Of a stretch of DNA of 64,000 nucleotides, positions 400-57,155 are shown one piece after another. Position numbers and translations under genes: made by a program. The notes beneath the pieces were generated by a model. That model worked only from the letters and a program-made list of their open reading frames with translations, did no database searches and was not told where the DNA came from. The stretch spans positions 682,001 to 746,000 of the forward strand of contig NZ_MKVA01000011.1 of the NCBI RefSeq assembly GCF_001899075.1. Reading direction: 5' to 3'. The DNA comes from Devosia sp. 67-54. Its GTDB lineage: Bacteria > Pseudomonadota > Alphaproteobacteria > Rhizobiales > Devosiaceae. How positions within the stretch are numbered: position 1 is the first letter of the stretch; every line of letters starts with the position of its first letter.

Positions 400-565
400 G
401 GCGTGGTCGAGCGGGCCGCGACGCACGGCGCCTCGCTCCGCCGCGCCCGATCCCGGGCGGGCCGGAACAACATGGACATCTCCTGGTCTTGCCGCCTAAC
501 GCCCCAGCCGGCCCGGAAGTTGCCGCCGCTTGCGCCGGCCGGCGATTGCGGCCAAGACAGCGTCA

Positions 566-3043
566 ATGCCGCTGCCCATCGACGCCATCCTGCCCGCTCT
601 GCTCGCCGCCCTTGCCGCCCACCCGCGGGCGGTGCTGGTCGCCCCGCCGGGCGCCGGCAAGACCACGCGCGTGCCGCTGGCCCTGCTGGCGGCGCTCCCG
701 CGGTTGGCCGAGCGACCCGTCTCCGGGTCGCTCGGTCCAGAGCAGGAAGCAGAGCGGTTGGCCGAACGATCGCGTTTGCGATCGCTCGGTCCAGAGCAGG
801 AAAAAGAGCCCTCGCCCGAACGACCCCATGGCAGGATCGTCATGCTGGAGCCGCGCCGGCTGGCGGCCCGCGCCGCAGCGCGTTTCATGGCGCAATCGCT
901 GGGCGAGGCGGTGGGCGACACCGTCGGCTATCGCGTCCGCCTCGACACGCGGGTGGGCCCGCGCACGCGCATCGAGGTGGTGACCGAGGGCGTGTTCACC
1001 CGCATGCTGCTCGACGACCCCGAGCTCTCCGGCGTCGCCGCGGTGATCTTCGACGAATTCCACGAGCGCAGCCTCGATGCCGATCTCGGTCTGGCGCTGG
1101 CGCTCGACGCCATCGCGCTCCGCCCCGACCTGAGGCTGCTGGTGATGTCGGCCACGCTCGACGGCGCCCGCGTCGCCAAGCTCCTGGGGGATGCTCCGGT
1201 GCTCGAGAGCGAGGGCCGCGTCTTCCCGGTCGAGACCCGCTACGCGCCGCCTGATCCGCTGCAGCGGCTGGAGGACCAGGTGGCGGCGGCGGTGCTCGCG
1301 GCGCTGCGCAGCGATGCAGGGTCCATCCTCGTCTTCCTGCCGGGGCAGGGGGAGATCGCGCGCGTCGCCGAACGCCTCGCCGGCCGCGTCGGCGGCGACA
1401 CCGACATCGCCCCGCTCTACGGCCAGCTCGACGCCGCCGCGCAGGATCGCGCCATCGCCCCGGCGCCGGCCGGCCGCCGCAAGGTGGTGCTCGCCACCTC
1501 CATCGCCGAGACGTCGCTCACCATCGAGGGTATCCGCATCGTCGTCGATTCCGGCTATCGCCGCGTGCCGGTCTACGATCCGGCCACCGGCCTCAGCGCG
1601 CTGGAGACGCGCCGCGTGTCGCGCGCCGCCGCCGACCAGCGCCGCGGCCGTGCCGGCCGCACCGCGCCGGGCATCTGCTACCGGCTGTGGAGCGAGGGCC
1701 AGACCGGCGCGCTGGTGCCTTTCGATACGCCCGAAATCCTCAGCGCCGACCTCAGCGGGCTGGCGCTCGACCTCGCCAGCTGGGGCGTTTCCGACCCAGG
1801 GGCGCTGGCCTTCCTCGATCCGCCGCCGGCGCCCGCCTGGGCCGAGGCGGTGGCGCTGCTGCAAAAGCTAGAGGCGCTGGACGCGGCCGGTCGCATCACC
1901 GCCGAGGGCCGGGCGCTGGCGCGCCTGCCGCTGCATCCGCGCCTCGCCCACATGGTCCACGCCGCCGAGGATCGGGGCACCGCCGCCGAGCTCGCGGTGC
2001 TGCTCACCGAGCGCGGCCTTGGCGGCGACGACACCGACCTCGCGCATCGCCTGTCGCGCTTCCGCGCCGACCGCTCGCGCCGCGCCGACGAGGCGCGCGC
2101 GCTCGCCCGCCGCTGGGGCGGCGCGCCGGGCGGCGAGGCCGGCATCGGCCGCCTGCTGGCGCGCGCCTATCCCGACCGCGTGGCGCAGGCCGCCGGCGCC
2201 CGCGGCCGCTTCCGCCTCGCCAACGGCCGCGCCGCCGCGCTCGCGGAGACCGACGCGCTGGCGCGCGCGCCGTTCCTCGCGGTCACCGAGGTCACCGGCG
2301 CCGCCGCCAGCGGCCGCATCCGCGCCGCTGCCGCGCTCGGCCGCGACGACATCGAGGCGCTGTTCGCCGCCCGCATCATGTCTGAAACGACGCTCCACTG
2401 GGACGAGCCGAGCGCCTCCGTCCGCGCCCGCCGCCGCCGCCTCTACGGTGCGCTCGTTCTCGCCGACGATCCGGTGCCGCCCCCCGACGCGGCCGCCGCG
2501 ACGGCGCTCCTCGTCGAGCACGTCGCCGAGCGCCTGCCCTGGTCGGCGGCGCAGCGGACGCTCCTGGCACGCGCCTGCTATCTCGACGCCGATTTCGCGA
2601 TTCCAACCCGCGATCTCCTGACACAATTGCACGGCAAGACGGCCCTGTCCGAGATCGCCCCCGCCGACCTCGATCCGCTGCTTCCCTACGCCCTCCGCGC
2701 CGAGCTCGACCGCGCCTTGCCGAGCCATTTCGAGGCCCCCTCGGGCAGCCGTATCCCCATTGATTATGCTGCACAATCCGGCCCCGCCATCGAGGTCCGG
2801 GTGCAGGAGCTCTATGGCCTCGACCGGCATCCGAGCATCGCCCATGGCCGCATCCCGCTGACCCTCGTTCTGCTCAGTCCGGCGCGCCGCCCCATCCAGA
2901 CCACGCGCGACCTCCCCGGCTTCTGGCGCGGCTCCTGGGCGGACGTCGCCAAGGACATGCGCGGCCGCTATCCGCGCCATCCCTGGCCCGACGATCCCGC
3001 CGCCGCCGCGCCCACCACCCGCGCCAAGCCGCGCGGCACCTGA
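566..3043 (+). CDS. hrpB: ATP-dependent helicase HrpB
   Basis: A DEAH/RHA-family helicase of 825 residues, the normal size for HrpB. Walker A (PPGAGKTT) is at residues 27-34, the motif II variant DEFH at 163-166, then SAT (VMSATLDGA), the helicase C motifs (TSIAETSLTIEG, QRRGRAGR) and the HrpB-specific C-terminal domain. The ATG at 566 is preferred over one 12 codons upstream because the family normally begins MPLPIDAILP. Between motif I and motif Ia (residues about 46-81) there are two in-frame copies of a palindromic repeat, encoding RLAERPVSGSLGPEQEAE and a similar unit. Ordinary HrpB proteins have only a short linker there. Its cellular role is poorly defined in most bacteria; mRNA processing is reported in E. 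coli. Confidence 0.93.
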   Translation: MPLPIDAILPALLAALAAHPRAVLVAPPGAGKTTRVPLALLAALPRLAERPVSGSLGPEQEAERLAERSRLRSLGPEQEKEPSPERPHGRIVMLEPRRLAARAAARFMAQSLGEAVGDTVGYRVRLDTRVGPRTRIEVVTEGVFTRMLLDDPELSGVAAVIFDEFHERSLDADLGLALALDAIALRPDLRLLVMSATLDGARVAKLLGDAPVLESEGRVFPVETRYAPPDPLQRLEDQVAAAVLAALRSDAGSILVFLPGQGEIARVAERLAGRVGGDTDIAPLYGQLDAAAQDRAIAPAPAGRRKVVLATSIAETSLTIEGIRIVVDSGYRRVPVYDPATGLSALETRRVSRAAADQRRGRAGRTAPGICYRLWSEGQTGALVPFDTPEILSADLSGLALDLASWGVSDPGALAFLDPPPAPAWAEAVALLQKLEALDAAGRITAEGRALARLPLHPRLAHMVHAAEDRGTAAELAVLLTERGLGGDDTDLAHRLSRFRADRSRRADEARALARRWGGAPGGEAGIGRLLARAYPDRVAQAAGARGRFRLANGRAAALAETDALARAPFLAVTEVTGAAASGRIRAAAALGRDDIEALFAARIMSETTLHWDEPSASVRARRRRLYGALVLADDPVPPPDAAAATALLVEHVAERLPWSAAQRTLLARACYLDADFAIPTRDLLTQLHGKTALSEIAPADLDPLLPYALRAELDRALPSHFEAPSGSRIPIDYAAQSGPAIEVRVQELYGLDRHPSIAHGRIPLTLVLLSPARRPIQTTRDLPGFWRGSWADVAKDMRGRYPRHPWPDDPAAAAPTTRAKPRGT
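702..809 (+). repeat. Family A palindromic repeat, two in-frame copies inside hrpB
   Basis: Two 54-bp units start at 702 and 756, each beginning GGTTGGCCGA and ending with GGTCCAGAGCAGGAA followed by a purine-rich tail. The first has a perfect 11-bp stem (708-718 with 725-735, loop GTCTCC). The second has a 12-bp stem with one mismatch (762-773 with 778-789, loop GTTT). Both lengths are multiples of three and add 36 codons to hrpB without a stop. The same family recurs near 24.03 kb and as a tandem array at 47.9-48.3 kb. Confidence 0.85.
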
Positions 3044-7213: not shown

Positions 7214-8260
7214 ATGGACTATCGCCTGCTCGGCCGTTCCGGCCTCAAGGTTTCCGCCCTGTCGATCGGCACCGCCACCTTCGGCGGCGACGGGCTGTGG
7301 GGCGCCACCGACGTCAGTGACGCGCAGCGCCAGATCGACCTCTGCCTCGATCATGGCGTCAACCTCGTCGACACCGCCAACGTCTATGCCGACAGCAAGT
7401 CCGAAAGCATCCTCGGGGAAGCGCTGAGCGACGGCCGCCGCGACCGCGTGCTGCTCGCCACCAAGGTGCGCTTCGCGCGCGGCCCCGGCCCCAACGATCG
7501 CGGCCTCAGCCGCTGGCACATCATCCGCGAATGCGAGAATTCGCTGCGCCGCATGAAGACCGACGTGATCGATCTCTACCAGGTGCACGAATGGGACGGC
7601 GAGACGCCGCTCGAGGAGACCATGGAGGCGCTCGATACCCTGATCAAGCAGGGCAAGGTCCGCTATGTCGGCTGCTCCAATTATTCGGCCTGGCATCTGA
7701 TGAAGGCCCTCGCCATCGCCGACCGCGCCCATTGGCAGCGCTTCGTCAGCCAGCAGATTCACTACACCCTGCAGGCGCGCGAGGCCGAATACGAGCTGGT
7801 GCCGCTCGGGCTCGACCAGGGAGTGTCGGTGCTCATCTGGTCGCCGCTCGGCGGCGGCTGGCTGTCGGGCAAGTACACCCGCAATTCGCAGCCCGAATCC
7901 GGCCGCCAGGTCAGCGGCTTCCGCGAGCCGCCGATCACCGATTGGGACAAGCTGTGGGACATCGTCGATGTGATCAACGACGTCGCCGCGGCGCATGGCG
8001 TGTCCGGGGCGCAGGTGTCGCTCGCCTGGCTGCTGCAGCGCCCGCTGGTCGCTTCGGTGATCATCGGCGGCCGCCGCATCGAGCAGTTCGAGGACAACCT
8101 CAAGGCCGCGCATCTGCAGCTCACCGCCGAGGAGGTGGCGCGCCTCGACAAGGTCAGCCAGCCGCCGCTGATCTACCCGTACTGGCACCAGAGCTTCACC
8201 GCCACCGACCGGCTCGGCGCCGCCGATCTGGCGCTGCACCGGCCCTATCTCGAAGGGTAG
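7214..8260 (+). CDS. Aldo/keto reductase
   Basis: A 348-residue NADPH-dependent AKR barrel. The catalytic tetrad is visible: Asp and Tyr in NLVDTANVYADS, Lys in LLATKVRF, and His in DLYQVHEWDG. The C-terminal cofactor-binding segment (ASVIIGGRRIEQFEDNL) fits the YajO/MgrA-like class. Substrates of this class are usually aldehydes or sugars and cannot be assigned here. It lies 101 bp after infA with its own ribosome-binding purines (GGGAGA at 7200-7205), so it may be read from its own promoter. Confidence 0.88.
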   Translation: MDYRLLGRSGLKVSALSIGTATFGGDGLWGATDVSDAQRQIDLCLDHGVNLVDTANVYADSKSESILGEALSDGRRDRVLLATKVRFARGPGPNDRGLSRWHIIRECENSLRRMKTDVIDLYQVHEWDGETPLEETMEALDTLIKQGKVRYVGCSNYSAWHLMKALAIADRAHWQRFVSQQIHYTLQAREAEYELVPLGLDQGVSVLIWSPLGGGWLSGKYTRNSQPESGRQVSGFREPPITDWDKLWDIVDVINDVAAAHGVSGAQVSLAWLLQRPLVASVIIGGRRIEQFEDNLKAAHLQLTAEEVARLDKVSQPPLIYPYWHQSFTATDRLGAADLALHRPYLEG

Positions 8261-19455: not shown

Positions 19456-19821
19456 TCAGCCGGCCGAGGACGACGAGGCCGGCGCCATCGGCGTCGCTTC
19501 GCTCGATGAGGCGGGGGCCATCGGGGTGGCTTCGCTCGACGACGCGGGAGCCATCGGCGTGGCTTCCGACGACGAGGCCGGCGCCATCGGCGTGGCTTCA
19601 GACGAGGACGCGGCTTCGCTCGACGAAACCGGGGCGGCTTCCGACGAAGACACCGGGGCCGCTTCCGAGGACGAGGCCGGCGCCGCTTCCGACGAGCTGA
19701 CCACGGCCGAGCTCGACGCGGTGTTCACCGTGGTGGTGTTGCCGCCGCGGTTGAAGATCCAGATGAGGCCGATGATCACGATCACGGCGACGATGATGAT
19801 AATCCAGGTGTTGCGGTTCAT
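19456..19821 (-). CDS. Small membrane-anchored Ser/Ala-rich repeat protein
   Basis: 121 residues: a short basic start, one hydrophobic helix (about 6-24, rich in Ile/Val), then an extracytoplasmic-looking, low-complexity tail. The tail has SSSEAAP-type units followed by four near-identical ASSSEATPMAP units (about residues 74-118). The tail is acidic and disordered. It could be a cell-envelope tether, a spacer, or a glycosylated or phosphorylated stalk; none is proven. It faces the sugar ABC operon across the shared terminator. The DNA tandem repeats suggest the copy number varies between strains. Confidence 0.75.
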   Translation of the reverse strand: MNRNTWIIIIVAVIVIIGLIWIFNRGGNTTTVNTASSSAVVSSSEAAPASSSEAAPVSSSEAAPVSSSEAASSSEATPMAPASSSEATPMAPASSSEATPMAPASSSEATPMAPASSSSAG

Positions 19822-24017: not shown

Positions 24018-24024
24018 TCACCAG

Positions 24025-24078
24025 CGGTTGGCCGAGCGAGCCTTCTCAGGCTCGATCGGCCAGAGCACAAGAAAAAAC
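24025..24078 (+). repeat. Family A palindromic repeat, single intergenic copy
   Basis: CGGTTGGCCGAGCGAGCC, TTCTCA loop, GGCTCGATCGG and CAGAGCACAAGAAAAAACC follow in order. The stem is 11 bp with one mismatch (24032-24042 with 24049-24059). It lies between the convergent glycerate kinase and MFS genes. Read in the same frame as the hrpB copy it gives RLAERAFSGSIGQSTRKN. It could double as a bidirectional terminator. Confidence 0.8.
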
Positions 24079-24124
24079 CAGGAGGGGACCATGCGAAGCA
24101 TGATGGAGGGGGCCGCCTATCCAC

Positions 24125-39927: not shown

Positions 39928-42900
39928 TCAGTCGTTCCGCGTGGCAGCCGGGTGAGGGGCCGTGAGATACTGGAACGCCGAATTGCTCCGCGGCACCCAA
40001 TAGCCGCGCCGCCGCGCCTCGTTGAATTTGTCGATCAGCTCGTCATAGCCGAAGCGGTTGTTGGCGATGAGGAAGGCCCGAATCGCCTCGTCCTCGACGA
40101 ACGCCTCGAACGCCAGGTCGAAATGGTGCGTCTTGACCGCGCCCGTGGTCGCCGCGAAGGCAAACATGTAGTCCACCGTGGCGATGATCTCGAAGGCGCC
40201 CTTGTAGCCGTGCCGCTTCACCCCGGCGATCCATTTGGGGTTGACCACGCGGCCGCGCATCACGCGCGAGATTTCTTCCTCGAGCGTGCGCGCCACCGGC
40301 CGCTCCGGCCGCGAATGGTCGTTGTGGTAGGCGAGGGGGCGCCGCCCCGTCAGGCTCTCGGCGGTCGCCACCAGCCCGCCCTCGAACTGGTAGTAGTCGT
40401 CGCTGTCGAGCAGATCGTGCTCGCGATTGTCCTGGTTGTGCACCACCGCCTCGATGTCGCCCAGCCGCGCCGCAAAGCGCGCCAGCTCCGGCGTGCCGGC
40501 GGCATGCGCGCCATAGGCGTACTGCCCCCAATTGAGGAAGGCGCGCCCGAGGTCGGCCTTGCTCTCCCACATGCCGGAGTCGATCAGCGCCTGCAGCCCC
40601 GCGCCATACGCGCCGGGCTTGCTGCCGAACACCCGGTGCCCCGCCGCCAGCGCCGCTTCGGCTTCGCTCCTGCCCTCGCGCATCAGCTCCAGCGCGTCCG
40701 AGCGCATGCGCGCCGCGATCGGATTGTCGCCCGCCGGCTCGTCCAGTGCGCCGATGGCGCGGATGGCCTTGTCGAACAGCCCGATCTGCTGCGGGAACGC
40801 GTCGCGGAACAGCCCGGAGATGCGCAGCGTCACGTCCACCCGCGGCCGGCCGAGCCTGGCCAGCGGCACGATCTCGTAGCCCGAGGGCCTGAGTGAGGAG
40901 GGGTCCCACACCGGCTTCGCGCCGATGAAGGCTAGCGCCTGCGCGATGTCGTCGCCGCCGGTCCGCATGTTCGACGTGCCCCAGACGCTCAGCGCCAGCG
41001 ATCGCAGCGCCACGCCGTGATCCTGGAAATGCCGCGCCAGCACCGCCTCGGCCGATTTGCGCCCCAGCTCCCACGCCGTCGGCGTCGGGATGGCGCGGTT
41101 GTCGACCGAATAGAAATTGCGCCCTGTTGGCAGCACGTCGAGCCGCCCGCGCGACGGCGCCCCGCTCGGCCCCGGCCTGACGAATTTGCCGTCGAGCCCG
41201 TCAAGCAGCGCCGCGACCTCCGCCGGCCCCGACGCCCGGAGCCGTGGCCGCATCACCGTCTCGACCGCCGCCAGCACCGCCGCCGACGCCGGACCCGGGG
41301 CAGGGGCGGCTCCCTCGATCATTGCCGCCGCCAACTCCTCCAGCCGCTCCACCACATCGCCGATGCTGCGCAGGCGGCCCCCACCCCCTTGCGGGGAGGG
41401 GCTGGGGGTGGGGGCCACATCCACCGGCCCAAAGTCCGGCCCCGTCCACTCATCCCCCAGCCCCGCCGTCAGCGGATCAACCCCGAGCTTCAGATCGTCC
41501 GCCAGCGCCCGGATCAGCGACTGATCCGGCGCGCGCTCCCCGCGCGGCACCCGCGCCAGCGCCGCCAGCAGGTCGCGCTCCAGCCGCCCCGCCGGCGATT
41601 GCCCGAACACATGCAGCCCGTCGCGGATCTGCGCTTCCTTCAGATCGCAGAGGAAGGTGTCGATCGCCTTCAACGCCTCGCTCTCGTCGTCCGGCAGGCC
41701 GATGTCGCGGTCGAGCCGCGCATCGCGCGTGAAGTCGAGAATGCGCCGCCTGAGGTGTGAGAGCCGCCGCCGGTCCATGCCGCTCGCCGCGTAATATTCG
41801 TCGAGCAGCGCTTCGAGATCCTTCAGCGGTCCGTAGGTCTCGGCCCGCGTCAGCGGCGGCACCAGATGGTCGATGATCACCGCGCCCGTCCGCCGCTTCG
41901 CCTGCGTGCCCTCGCCGGGGTCGTTGACGATGAACGGATAAAGATGCGGCAGCTCGCCCCACAGCAGCCCCGGATAGGAGGTCGCATCGAGCGCCGTCGC
42001 CTTGCCCGGCAGCCATTCCAGCGAGCCGTGCTTGCCGTTGTGGATCAGCGCCTCGGCGCCGAATTCGTGCTTCAGCCACAGATACGACGCCACATAGGCA
42101 TGCGGCGGCGCCAGATCCGGATCGTGATACGCTGCTGCGTCGTCGCGATCGTAGCCACGCGCCGGCTGCAGCAGCACCGCCACATGCCCGAAGCGAACCG
42201 CCGGCAGATGGAACGCCGCTCCACGCACGAACGGATCGGCTTCCGCTTCGCCCCAGCGCGCCGTCACCGCTCGCTGCACCGTCTCCGGCAGGCCTGCAAA
42301 CAGCTCGCGATAGCGCGTGAGCGAAAACGGCATGCCGCCCTTGCGCTCGGGATGCGCATTGGTCGGCCCCTGCTGCAACCGCTCGATCAGCGCATTGCCG
42401 TCCGCCGGCACACCCGCGAGCGCATAGCCCGCCGTCTCCAGCGCCCGCAAAATCTCTACCGTCGAGGCCGGTGCGTCATAGCCCACGCCATTGGCCAGCC
42501 GCCCGTCGCGGATCGGATAATTGGCGAGCACCATCGCCACCCTGCGCTCACCGCGCGGCGTCGCGCGCAACTTCACCCAGTTCGCCGCCAGCGACACCGC
42601 ACGCCGCACCCCGTCGGCATCCGGCGCGTAGCTCGACAGCGGGCATTGCGTGCGCGCATGCCACACCGCCTCGGCCTTGTGCCCGACGATCAGCCCGCCG
42701 ATCCGCCCGTCGAGTTCGGGCAGCACGATCTGCATCGCCAGATCCTTGGCGCTCAGCCCCTGGCTGTCGGCCGCCCATTGCACCTGCGGCCGCCCGCCCT
42801 GCACCAGCTGGATCACCGGCGCATCGGTTTCGGCGAAGGGGTTGAGCTTGTCCTCGATCCCGTCGAGCCCCAGCGCAAACCCGGTGAGATTGAGGATCGC

Positions 42901-44765: not shown

Positions 44766-44811
44766 GTGACACCCTCCGTGCGCACGTTGAAGAATGAGCG
44801 TCGAGCTCGCT

Positions 44812-45000
44812 TGTGCCGGCAGGTCTCCTGGCTCGCGGGTCGCTGTGCGCTCCGGCCTTCCCGGCGAAGCATCGCCAGTGGCTGTTCGGTGCACTCGCCG
44901 CTCACAGTTGCGGGGGCAGCCACGGTTTCGGTCCCTGATGGGTACGCCTCACCGCATTCCCTTTTGATCCTCGCGGCCGTCCGGCCTGAGGAACCGACAG
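44812..45000 (-). ncRNA. Cobalamin (AdoCbl) riboswitch
   Basis: On the minus strand, in order: GTCGGTTCC (P1 5' side), AAAAGGGAATGCGGTGAGGC, CCCCCGCAACTGTGAGCGGC, GCCACTGG, GGGAAGGCCGG, and GCGAGCCAGGAGACCTGCCGGC, the B12 box and P1 3' side. These are the conserved cobalamin-riboswitch blocks in correct order and spacing. The SD of cobW (GGAGGG) is about 40 nt downstream, favouring translational or coupled control by B12. Confidence 0.95.
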
Positions 45001-45005
45001 CGCCT

Positions 45006-45034
45006 TCTATTGCGCGCCGCCGGTCCCCGGTCAA
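45006..45034 (-). promoter_or_regulatory. Candidate promoter of the cobW riboswitch transcript
   Basis: On the minus strand TTGACC (45034-45029) is followed 17 bp later by AATAGA (45011-45006), a weak -10. It lies just upstream of the riboswitch 5' end, as required. Confidence 0.35.
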
Positions 45035-47909: not shown

Positions 47910-47920
47910 ACCCAAAAAGC

Positions 47921-48311
47921 GGTTGGACGATCGGGCGCTCTTGCGACCGCTCGGACAGAGCGAAGACAAAACCAAGCGGTTGGACGATCGGACGCTCTCG
48001 CGTCCGCTCGAACAGAGCGAAGACAAAACCAAGCGGTTGGACGATCGGGCGCTCTTGCGACCGATCGGACAGAGCGAAGATAAAACAATACGGTTGGACG
48101 ATCGGGCGCTCTTGCGACCGCTCGGACAGAGCGAAGACAAAACAATACGGTTGGACGATCGGACGCTCTTGCGACCGCTCGGACAGAGCGAAGATAAAGC
48201 CAAGCGGTTGGACGATCGGACGCTCTCGCGGCCGCTCGGACAGAGCGAAGATAAAGCCAGGCGGTTGGACGATCGGACGCTCTTGCGTCCGCTCGGACAG
48301 AGCGAAGGATA
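47921..48311 (+). repeat. Family A palindromic repeat, 7-copy tandem array (57-bp period)
   Basis: Seven units start at 47921, 47978, 48035, 48092, 48149, 48206 and 48263, exactly 57 bp apart. Each reads GGTTGGACGATCGG, stem, TCTT or TCTC loop, stem, then GCTCGGACAGAGCGAAGA and an A-rich tail. Stem differences are often paired (GGACGC with GCGTCC in copies 2, 6-like and 7). In one frame the array is open and encodes RLDDRALLRPLGQSEDKTK units. No start signal precedes it. Confidence 0.9.
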
Positions 48312-48324
48312 AGGATAGCGAGGA

Positions 48325-57117: not shown

Positions 57118-57155
57118 CCCCCACCCCCGACCCCTCCCCGCAAGGGGGAGGGGAG
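57118..57155 (-). repeat. Family B GC-rich palindromic repeat, intergenic copy (inverted)
   Basis: CCCCCACCCCCGACCCCTCCCCGCAAGGGGGAGGGGA, the reverse complement of the other copies. It lies between the cobM and cobK stop codons, 62 bp from the next copy, which is in the opposite orientation. The two can fold together into one long hairpin. Confidence 0.8.

Follow-up and report, generated by a model that had tools for sequence, protein, structure and literature searches.

We found that the gene for the ATP-dependent helicase HrpB of Devosia sp. 67-54 carries, between two conserved motifs of the helicase core, a segment that, on comparison of sequences, is an insertion of two copies of a dispersed palindromic element. 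Very probably the element is lineage-specific, non-autonomous and akin to both REPs and Rickettsia palindromic elements (RPEs), and the peptide it encodes in HrpB is a tolerated passenger. The analysis started from a 64-kb stretch of the Devosia sp. 67-54 genome (the window) and extended to the whole of that genome (G000) and to its relatives in the genus, among them G087, G090, G092 and G096.

The identity of the host gene is clear from its match to TIGR01970 (929 bits, where the cut-off is 546) and to the Pfam families HrpB_C, Helicase_C and DEAD. Its closest named relative is HrpB of Devosia subaequoris, at 66%, from which we take the group to be Devosiaceae. The original prediction placed two 54-nt palindromic units in frame between motifs I and Ia, and they were borne out at 700-807, with the reading frame open on both sides (Table 1). 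As the pair is tandem, the register of the unit boundaries is arbitrary, and 700-807 and 702-809 are equivalent. The predicted translation of the inserted segment includes RLAERPVSGSLGPEQEAER. The two units are 78% identical to each other, and the closest copy found to unit 2 was not unit 1 but one lying 4.4 kb upstream (G000:C11:678309). Folded as RNA, positions 700-810 reached −59.3 kcal/mol, compared with −41.6 (sd 3.5) for shuffled sequence (z = −5.1), and none of 200 shuffles did as well.

Table 1. Positions of the hrpB features and of other copies of the repeat in the 64-kb window.
Feature	Position	Strand	Details
hrpB, ATP-dependent helicase	530..3043	+	837 aa as listed from TTG; first in-frame ATG at 566
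Walker A / motif I (GAGKTT) of hrpB	650..667	+	From translation; invariant alignment columns
Palindromic unit 1 in hrpB	700..753	+	54 nt; encodes RLAERPVSGSLGPEQEAE; covariance model 50.0 bits
Palindromic unit 2 in hrpB	754..807	+	54 nt; encodes RLAERSRLRSLGPEQEKE; covariance model 64.3 bits
Probable degenerate start of a third unit in hrpB	808..831	+	About 14/19 nt match by eye; inferred
Motif Ia (LEPRR) of hrpB	845..859	+	From translation
Single intergenic copy	24024..24080	+	Starts 6 nt after a stop codon
Seven-unit head-to-tail array	47919..48317	+	Intergenic, between convergent genes; 57-nt period; starts 9 nt after a stop codon

Comparison with other HrpB proteins identified the segment as extra. 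The span from GAGKTT to LEPRR was 30 aa in 15 of the 18 loci from the genus, 29 in one, 49 in G087 and 70 in G000. We examined 80 HrpB loci for this span and located both motifs in 74; the span among these other loci was 27–34 aa, and exactly 30 in 63 of them. The extra segment therefore amounts to 40 residues (70 aa against the usual 30) rather than the 36 claimed beforehand. E. coli HrpB (6eud) aligned on both sides of the insert, with only four residues between the aligned parts. The hrpB gene of G087 has one unit in this loop, read in the frame used in G000; it adds 19 aa and lies about 15 nt further on. Aligning HrpB orthologues, the check originally proposed for restriction to one clade, confined the insert to G000 and G087 among the 18 genus loci, two species of a well-supported clade of five.

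The history of these two inserts can be read in two ways. In a tree from HrpB and UvrB joined, G000 is sister to G090 (support 99/98), which lacks the hrpB insert, and a grouping of G000 with G087 was rejected (p-AU = 0.013), although neither gene rejected it singly (p-AU = 0.068 and 0.092). The offset of about 15 nt between the insertion sites favours two insertions. The near identity of the units favours one, since unit 1 of G000 and the G087 unit are reciprocal best matches with two differences; that argument is weakened by equally similar units at unrelated loci, as 13 of 107 G000 units (counting that of the hrpB pair) have a G087 unit within two edits. The sequences are compatible with two insertions and with one insertion plus losses.

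The codon-usage gene caller begins hrpB at 842, and a product starting there would have no Walker A motif. On that evidence the gene could be undergoing inactivation, split by the insert and yielding nothing but a truncated protein that starts at about 842. We consider this very improbable. The frame is open across all 120 extra nucleotides, and the G087 gene is likewise open through its own insert. The 39 codons preceding the insert retain Walker A, and 15 of the 25 differences between G000 and G090 within them fall at third positions, so the upstream part of the gene still looks selected as protein; G000 HrpB has two unique residues in this stretch. The caller's choice of start can be traced to the inserted codons, which score poorly, and hrpB was for this reason judged by homology instead. 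The pattern of substitution supports the translation of hrpB through the insert.

The two hrpB units belong to a family with many copies. A strict pattern matched 10 copies in the window (0.00 expected) and 78 in the 4.2-Mb G000 genome, where the reversed pattern matched none. A covariance model built from an alignment of 35 copies gave at least 118 matches in G000, of which 11 were dropped as opposite-strand echoes of the palindrome, leaving at least 107 copies in at least 56 clusters, with a unit of about 57 nt; these counts are lower bounds, as the model scored only 150 of the 7727 candidates from a first look. The structure used has 15 stem pairs and a two-pair GC clamp, with conserved arm ends (consensus GCGGTTGG...CAGAGCGCAAARAAAA), and an A-rich tail follows the stem. 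Changes on both sides were seen at 6 of the 17 pairs (4.3 on average in shuffles, of which 6 of 500 reached that number), and the covariation score was 0.145, compared with 0.057 when shuffled and at most 0.035 when slid. Further pair types showed no excess (10, compared with 10.9 in shuffles, a value reached by 435 of 500). Neighbouring units in G000 are mostly 53–64 nt apart, and 31 of the 66 spacings are divisible by three.

The family is narrowly distributed. Seven of 19 genus genomes had a model match, and more than one was found only in G000 (118), G092 (92), G087 (46) and G090 (16), with none or one in the other 15. The strict pattern occurred in five of 136 genomes of the family Devosiaceae, one of the five belonging to another genus and giving a single match. 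Run with stricter filters, the model matched G000 alone among 397 genomes of the order. An Rfam scan of the window gave no match to the units at the gathering score. At three G092 loci (L267, L324 and L315) several copies lie nested within a composite that includes a ctctcccg/cgggagag repeat.

Other elements were also seen in the window. A second GC-rich palindromic family (CCCCTCCCCCTTGCGGGGAGGGGCYGGGGGTGGGGGC-like) occurs at 41379, 43182, 51722, 52635 and 57220 on the forward strand and at 57118 on the reverse; 33-nt tandem repeats, with a unit of 11 codons, occupy 19471-19690; and a cobalamin riboswitch (112 bits) lies at 44801-45013 on the reverse strand.

Most copies in G000 lie outside genes. 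Gene calls came from a codon-based caller retrained on hrpB orthologues, with a predicted coding fraction of 0.91 for the window. One of the 56 clusters is inside hrpB, another makes up the C-terminus of a primase encoded by a prophage, and 54 are intergenic, some of these extending up to 12 nt into the end of a predicted gene. Clusters lay a median of 6 nt from the nearest stop codon (40 of 52 within 25 nt), compared with 85 nt from the nearest start codon (8 of 38 within 25 nt). Leaving the hrpB cluster out, gaps between convergent genes held 18 clusters and those between divergent genes three (P = 0.0015).

This strong preference for positions right after stop codons, together with the depletion between divergent genes, is what would be seen if the unit were primarily a functional 3′-end RNA element of the host, a terminator or mRNA-stability hairpin, and the hrpB copy an accidental relocation. 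Several observations make that account unlikely. The copies inspected have an A-rich tail after the stem and no run of T, clusters between tandem genes lie in either orientation (20 versus 14), and the number of model matches ranges from none or one in 15 genus genomes up to 118. REPs are placed likewise, and PMC3733652 calls their role hypothetical. On the reading that we prefer, a dispersed element with occasional in-gene copies, any action of most copies in mRNA would be that of a 3′ hairpin.

The frames of the in-gene copies bear on whether the peptide matters. The original prediction matched the hrpB peptide, in the same frame, to copies at 24.03 and 47.9 kb; both turned out to be intergenic, 6 and 9 nt past stop codons, and their shared reading frame therefore means nothing. 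We judged in-gene status by a cluster-level test on 179 clusters in four genomes. In the relatives, 143 of 154 matches were kept after echoes and unlisted matches were dropped, and 107 surrounding stretches were examined; 26 of the 76 G092 clusters, at the edge of an examined stretch or of a contig, were not placed. Eight of the 179 clusters were accepted as in-gene: hrpB in G000 and G087, hemF in G087, uvrB in G092, and four in genes of a G087 prophage (a ParB-like gene with two clusters, and a primase and a helicase/methylase with one each). Three candidates were rejected, namely G092 C15:34673 (a weak 31.7-bit element with weak flanks), an antisense match in G087 hrpB (an echo) and G087 C5:39936 (the downstream side scores as non-coding).

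The two host genes other than hrpB also carry their copies in linkers. G087 hemF (Pfam Coprogen_oxidas) has two units, and the HemF linker is about 43 aa long there, compared with 8–14 aa in the five orthologues with the motif among 16 others examined. G092 uvrB has two units in a linker whose length varies between species. At the UvrB N-terminal linker (L372, L373 and L377) we observed this family in G092, TSPLAGEVAQ..PSEARRGG in G087 and HPEPVEGR in G096, the latter two being segments that we take to be repeat-like. Because the linker varies and can hold other such segments, the uvrB case is less clean than that of hrpB.

The eight in-gene clusters use five of the six possible frames, three sense and two antisense, with the sense frames reading RLAER (hrpB), AVGR (hemF and primase) and GWTN (uvrB). 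Per frame, 74–100% of copies in each genome are free of stop codons across the six frames, compared with 73–83% of random 57-mers from the window, and none of the six frames of the unit is conspicuously free of stops. The original prediction read the shared frame as suggesting selection on the peptide, allowing for chance with three units, and named equal use of the three frames by in-gene copies as a result that would tell against it; the use of all three sense frames comes close to that. With five frames in use and openness without frame bias, the argument from a fixed frame fails.

It is thus highly unlikely that the in-frame peptide is itself selected and the repeat spread as a protein module read in one frame. 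The hrpB genes of G000 and G087 do share the RLAER frame, and the antisense copies of the G087 prophage (helicase/methylase and ParB-like genes), together with a degenerate third, are all read in one frame and encode PQP..DR..G.PAGAP-like sequences. Against these stand the five frames and the absence of frame bias just described, the 54 of 56 G000 clusters outside genes, and the covariation of the stem, which acts at the level of the nucleic acid.

Half of the in-gene clusters came from the prophage of G087. By bounds set in this analysis it occupies about 9–56 kb of contig C5 (about 46.6 kb) and encodes a terminase, portal, head protein, tape measure, primase and integrase (PHROGs). It contains 15 full-length copies of the 40 kept matches, compared with 0.44 expected (P = 1.5 × 10−19), and about four further partial copies; the rest of the 4.2-Mb genome holds 24 kept matches. 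An outer extension, GGGGYCCC...core...GTGGGG, is carried by 14 of the 15 and has decayed in some of them; the fifteenth lies inside another copy. A strict pattern for this extended, phage-type form was found in one of 136 genomes of the family Devosiaceae, G087, with eight in the prophage (one partial) and one on a small contig. The related prophage of G000 has three copies without the extension, at other places, making up 3 of the 56 clusters compared with 0.65 expected (P = 0.028).

At three of the four in-gene sites of the G087 prophage the G000 homologue is about 20–25 residues shorter. At the fourth (C5:48729) the difference is only six residues, and the copy there may have arisen otherwise than by simple insertion. 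Two antisense in-gene copies of the phage type (L326 and L327) differ from the intergenic copies by the same bases on both arms. As these two and the degenerate third share one frame, a similar peptide and base variants, one in-gene copy may have seeded the others, or there may be some constraint on the peptide.

We also searched viral sequences. A right-arm scan of viral contigs gave 49 stretches, of which only one fitted the phage-type model, with one copy (56.5 bits) at 7486-7573 of the IMG/VR viral contig L389. At E 1e-5, megablast matched the 14.6 kb of L389 examined to neither prophage, a result that leaves room for distant kinship. A scan with the host pattern gave 32 stretches, two of which fitted the model, and their examined parts were 100% identical to the G000 prophage. 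Nothing was found in a phage collection searched with one phage-type copy, nor among plasmids searched with the hrpB insert. Phages could be both breeding ground and carrier of protein-coding palindromes, the longer form having multiplied within a temperate phage and phage-linked copying seeding host genes with new peptide inserts without a RAYT, and we put this forward as a tentative and rather doubtful idea. If copies do multiply in phage, the copying activity can be sought there, and the spread of REPs that have no transposase becomes testable.

The mechanism that we envisage has three parts. A replicative process, plus local tandem expansion, would spread the copies; selection would remove most in-gene hits; and copies in flexible loops or linkers would survive where the net length is a multiple of three, as all frames of the unit usually lack stop codons. 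The RAYT domain Y1_Tnp was detected in none of the 19 genus genomes at E 0.001, four of which are less than 90% complete, whereas 5 of 14 control genomes were positive. Flanking repeats scoring at least 8 were present at 13 of 128 single copies (10.2%, compared with 7.6% of mismatched pairs), and those scoring at least 9 at 10 of 128 (7.8% versus 3.8%), a mild excess. Such repeats bear on the target-site duplication that, with terminal inverted repeats, marks a MITE. One flanking repeat of 14–17 nt, at G000:C5:569602, stood out and looked promising, but no clear or general duplication was seen over the 128 copies.

As to novelty, the original prediction knew of no such family for this group. 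That holds for the family itself, of which our literature searches found no description, but intragenic REPs are already in print for this bacterial class, including one in R. conorii uvrB (PMC3733652), and the phenomenon is therefore not new. The same source reports REPs near stop codons and inside genes, RNA helicases among REP target genes in another genus, and CGTC REP families in alphaproteobacteria without a dedicated transposase; the word "phage" does not occur as a whole word in its main text. The repeat family and its longer phage-type form look new.

In the broad sense the family is a REP, a short palindrome with many dispersed copies mainly near gene 3′ ends. The CGTC- and GTAG-tagged REPs described in PMC3733652 are similar in being palindromes of 20–40 bp that hug gene 3′ ends in tandem and convergent gaps, and in lying sometimes inside genes, including uvrA/uvrB and RNA helicases. 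Unlike them, the present family has neither tag, a longer unit with an A-rich tail, head-to-tail arrays and a phage-type form. An unpaired GTAG tag at the palindrome end is absent from the consensus, and no end with a CGTC (or TGTC/CCTC) tag, an 8–9 bp stem and a CCA-like tail was seen among the 35 aligned copies. REPIN/RAYT systems (PMC3116915) are likewise non-autonomous palindromic repeats dispersed in one lineage, but here Y1_Tnp was detected in none of the 19 genus genomes.

The family can also be set beside other intergenic repeats of free-living alphaproteobacteria. One such group is the Rhizobium mosaic elements (RIME), compared by description only. Another is the Caulobacter CIR (PMC2229807), which that account reports as not in genes and as having stops in all frames; this comparison too is by description only. 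The likeness in behaviour originally drawn, to RPEs, was upheld: a selfish-looking palindrome family with rare in-frame copies tolerated inside otherwise conserved proteins, here HrpB, HemF, UvrB and phage proteins, just as RPEs and Wolbachia palindromic elements (WPEs) are alphaproteobacterial palindromes found both between genes and in frame within conserved proteins. RPEs, reviewed in PMC2229807, are given there as 105–146 bp and occupy other hosts; they were set apart by description. Here, in a Devosiaceae-like clade whose genomes measure about 4 Mb, the host-type unit spans about 57 nt and is often arrayed head-to-tail. The family offers a new example of selfish palindromes entering conserved proteins in a genome that is not unusual in size, with close relatives that lack the inserts as built-in controls.
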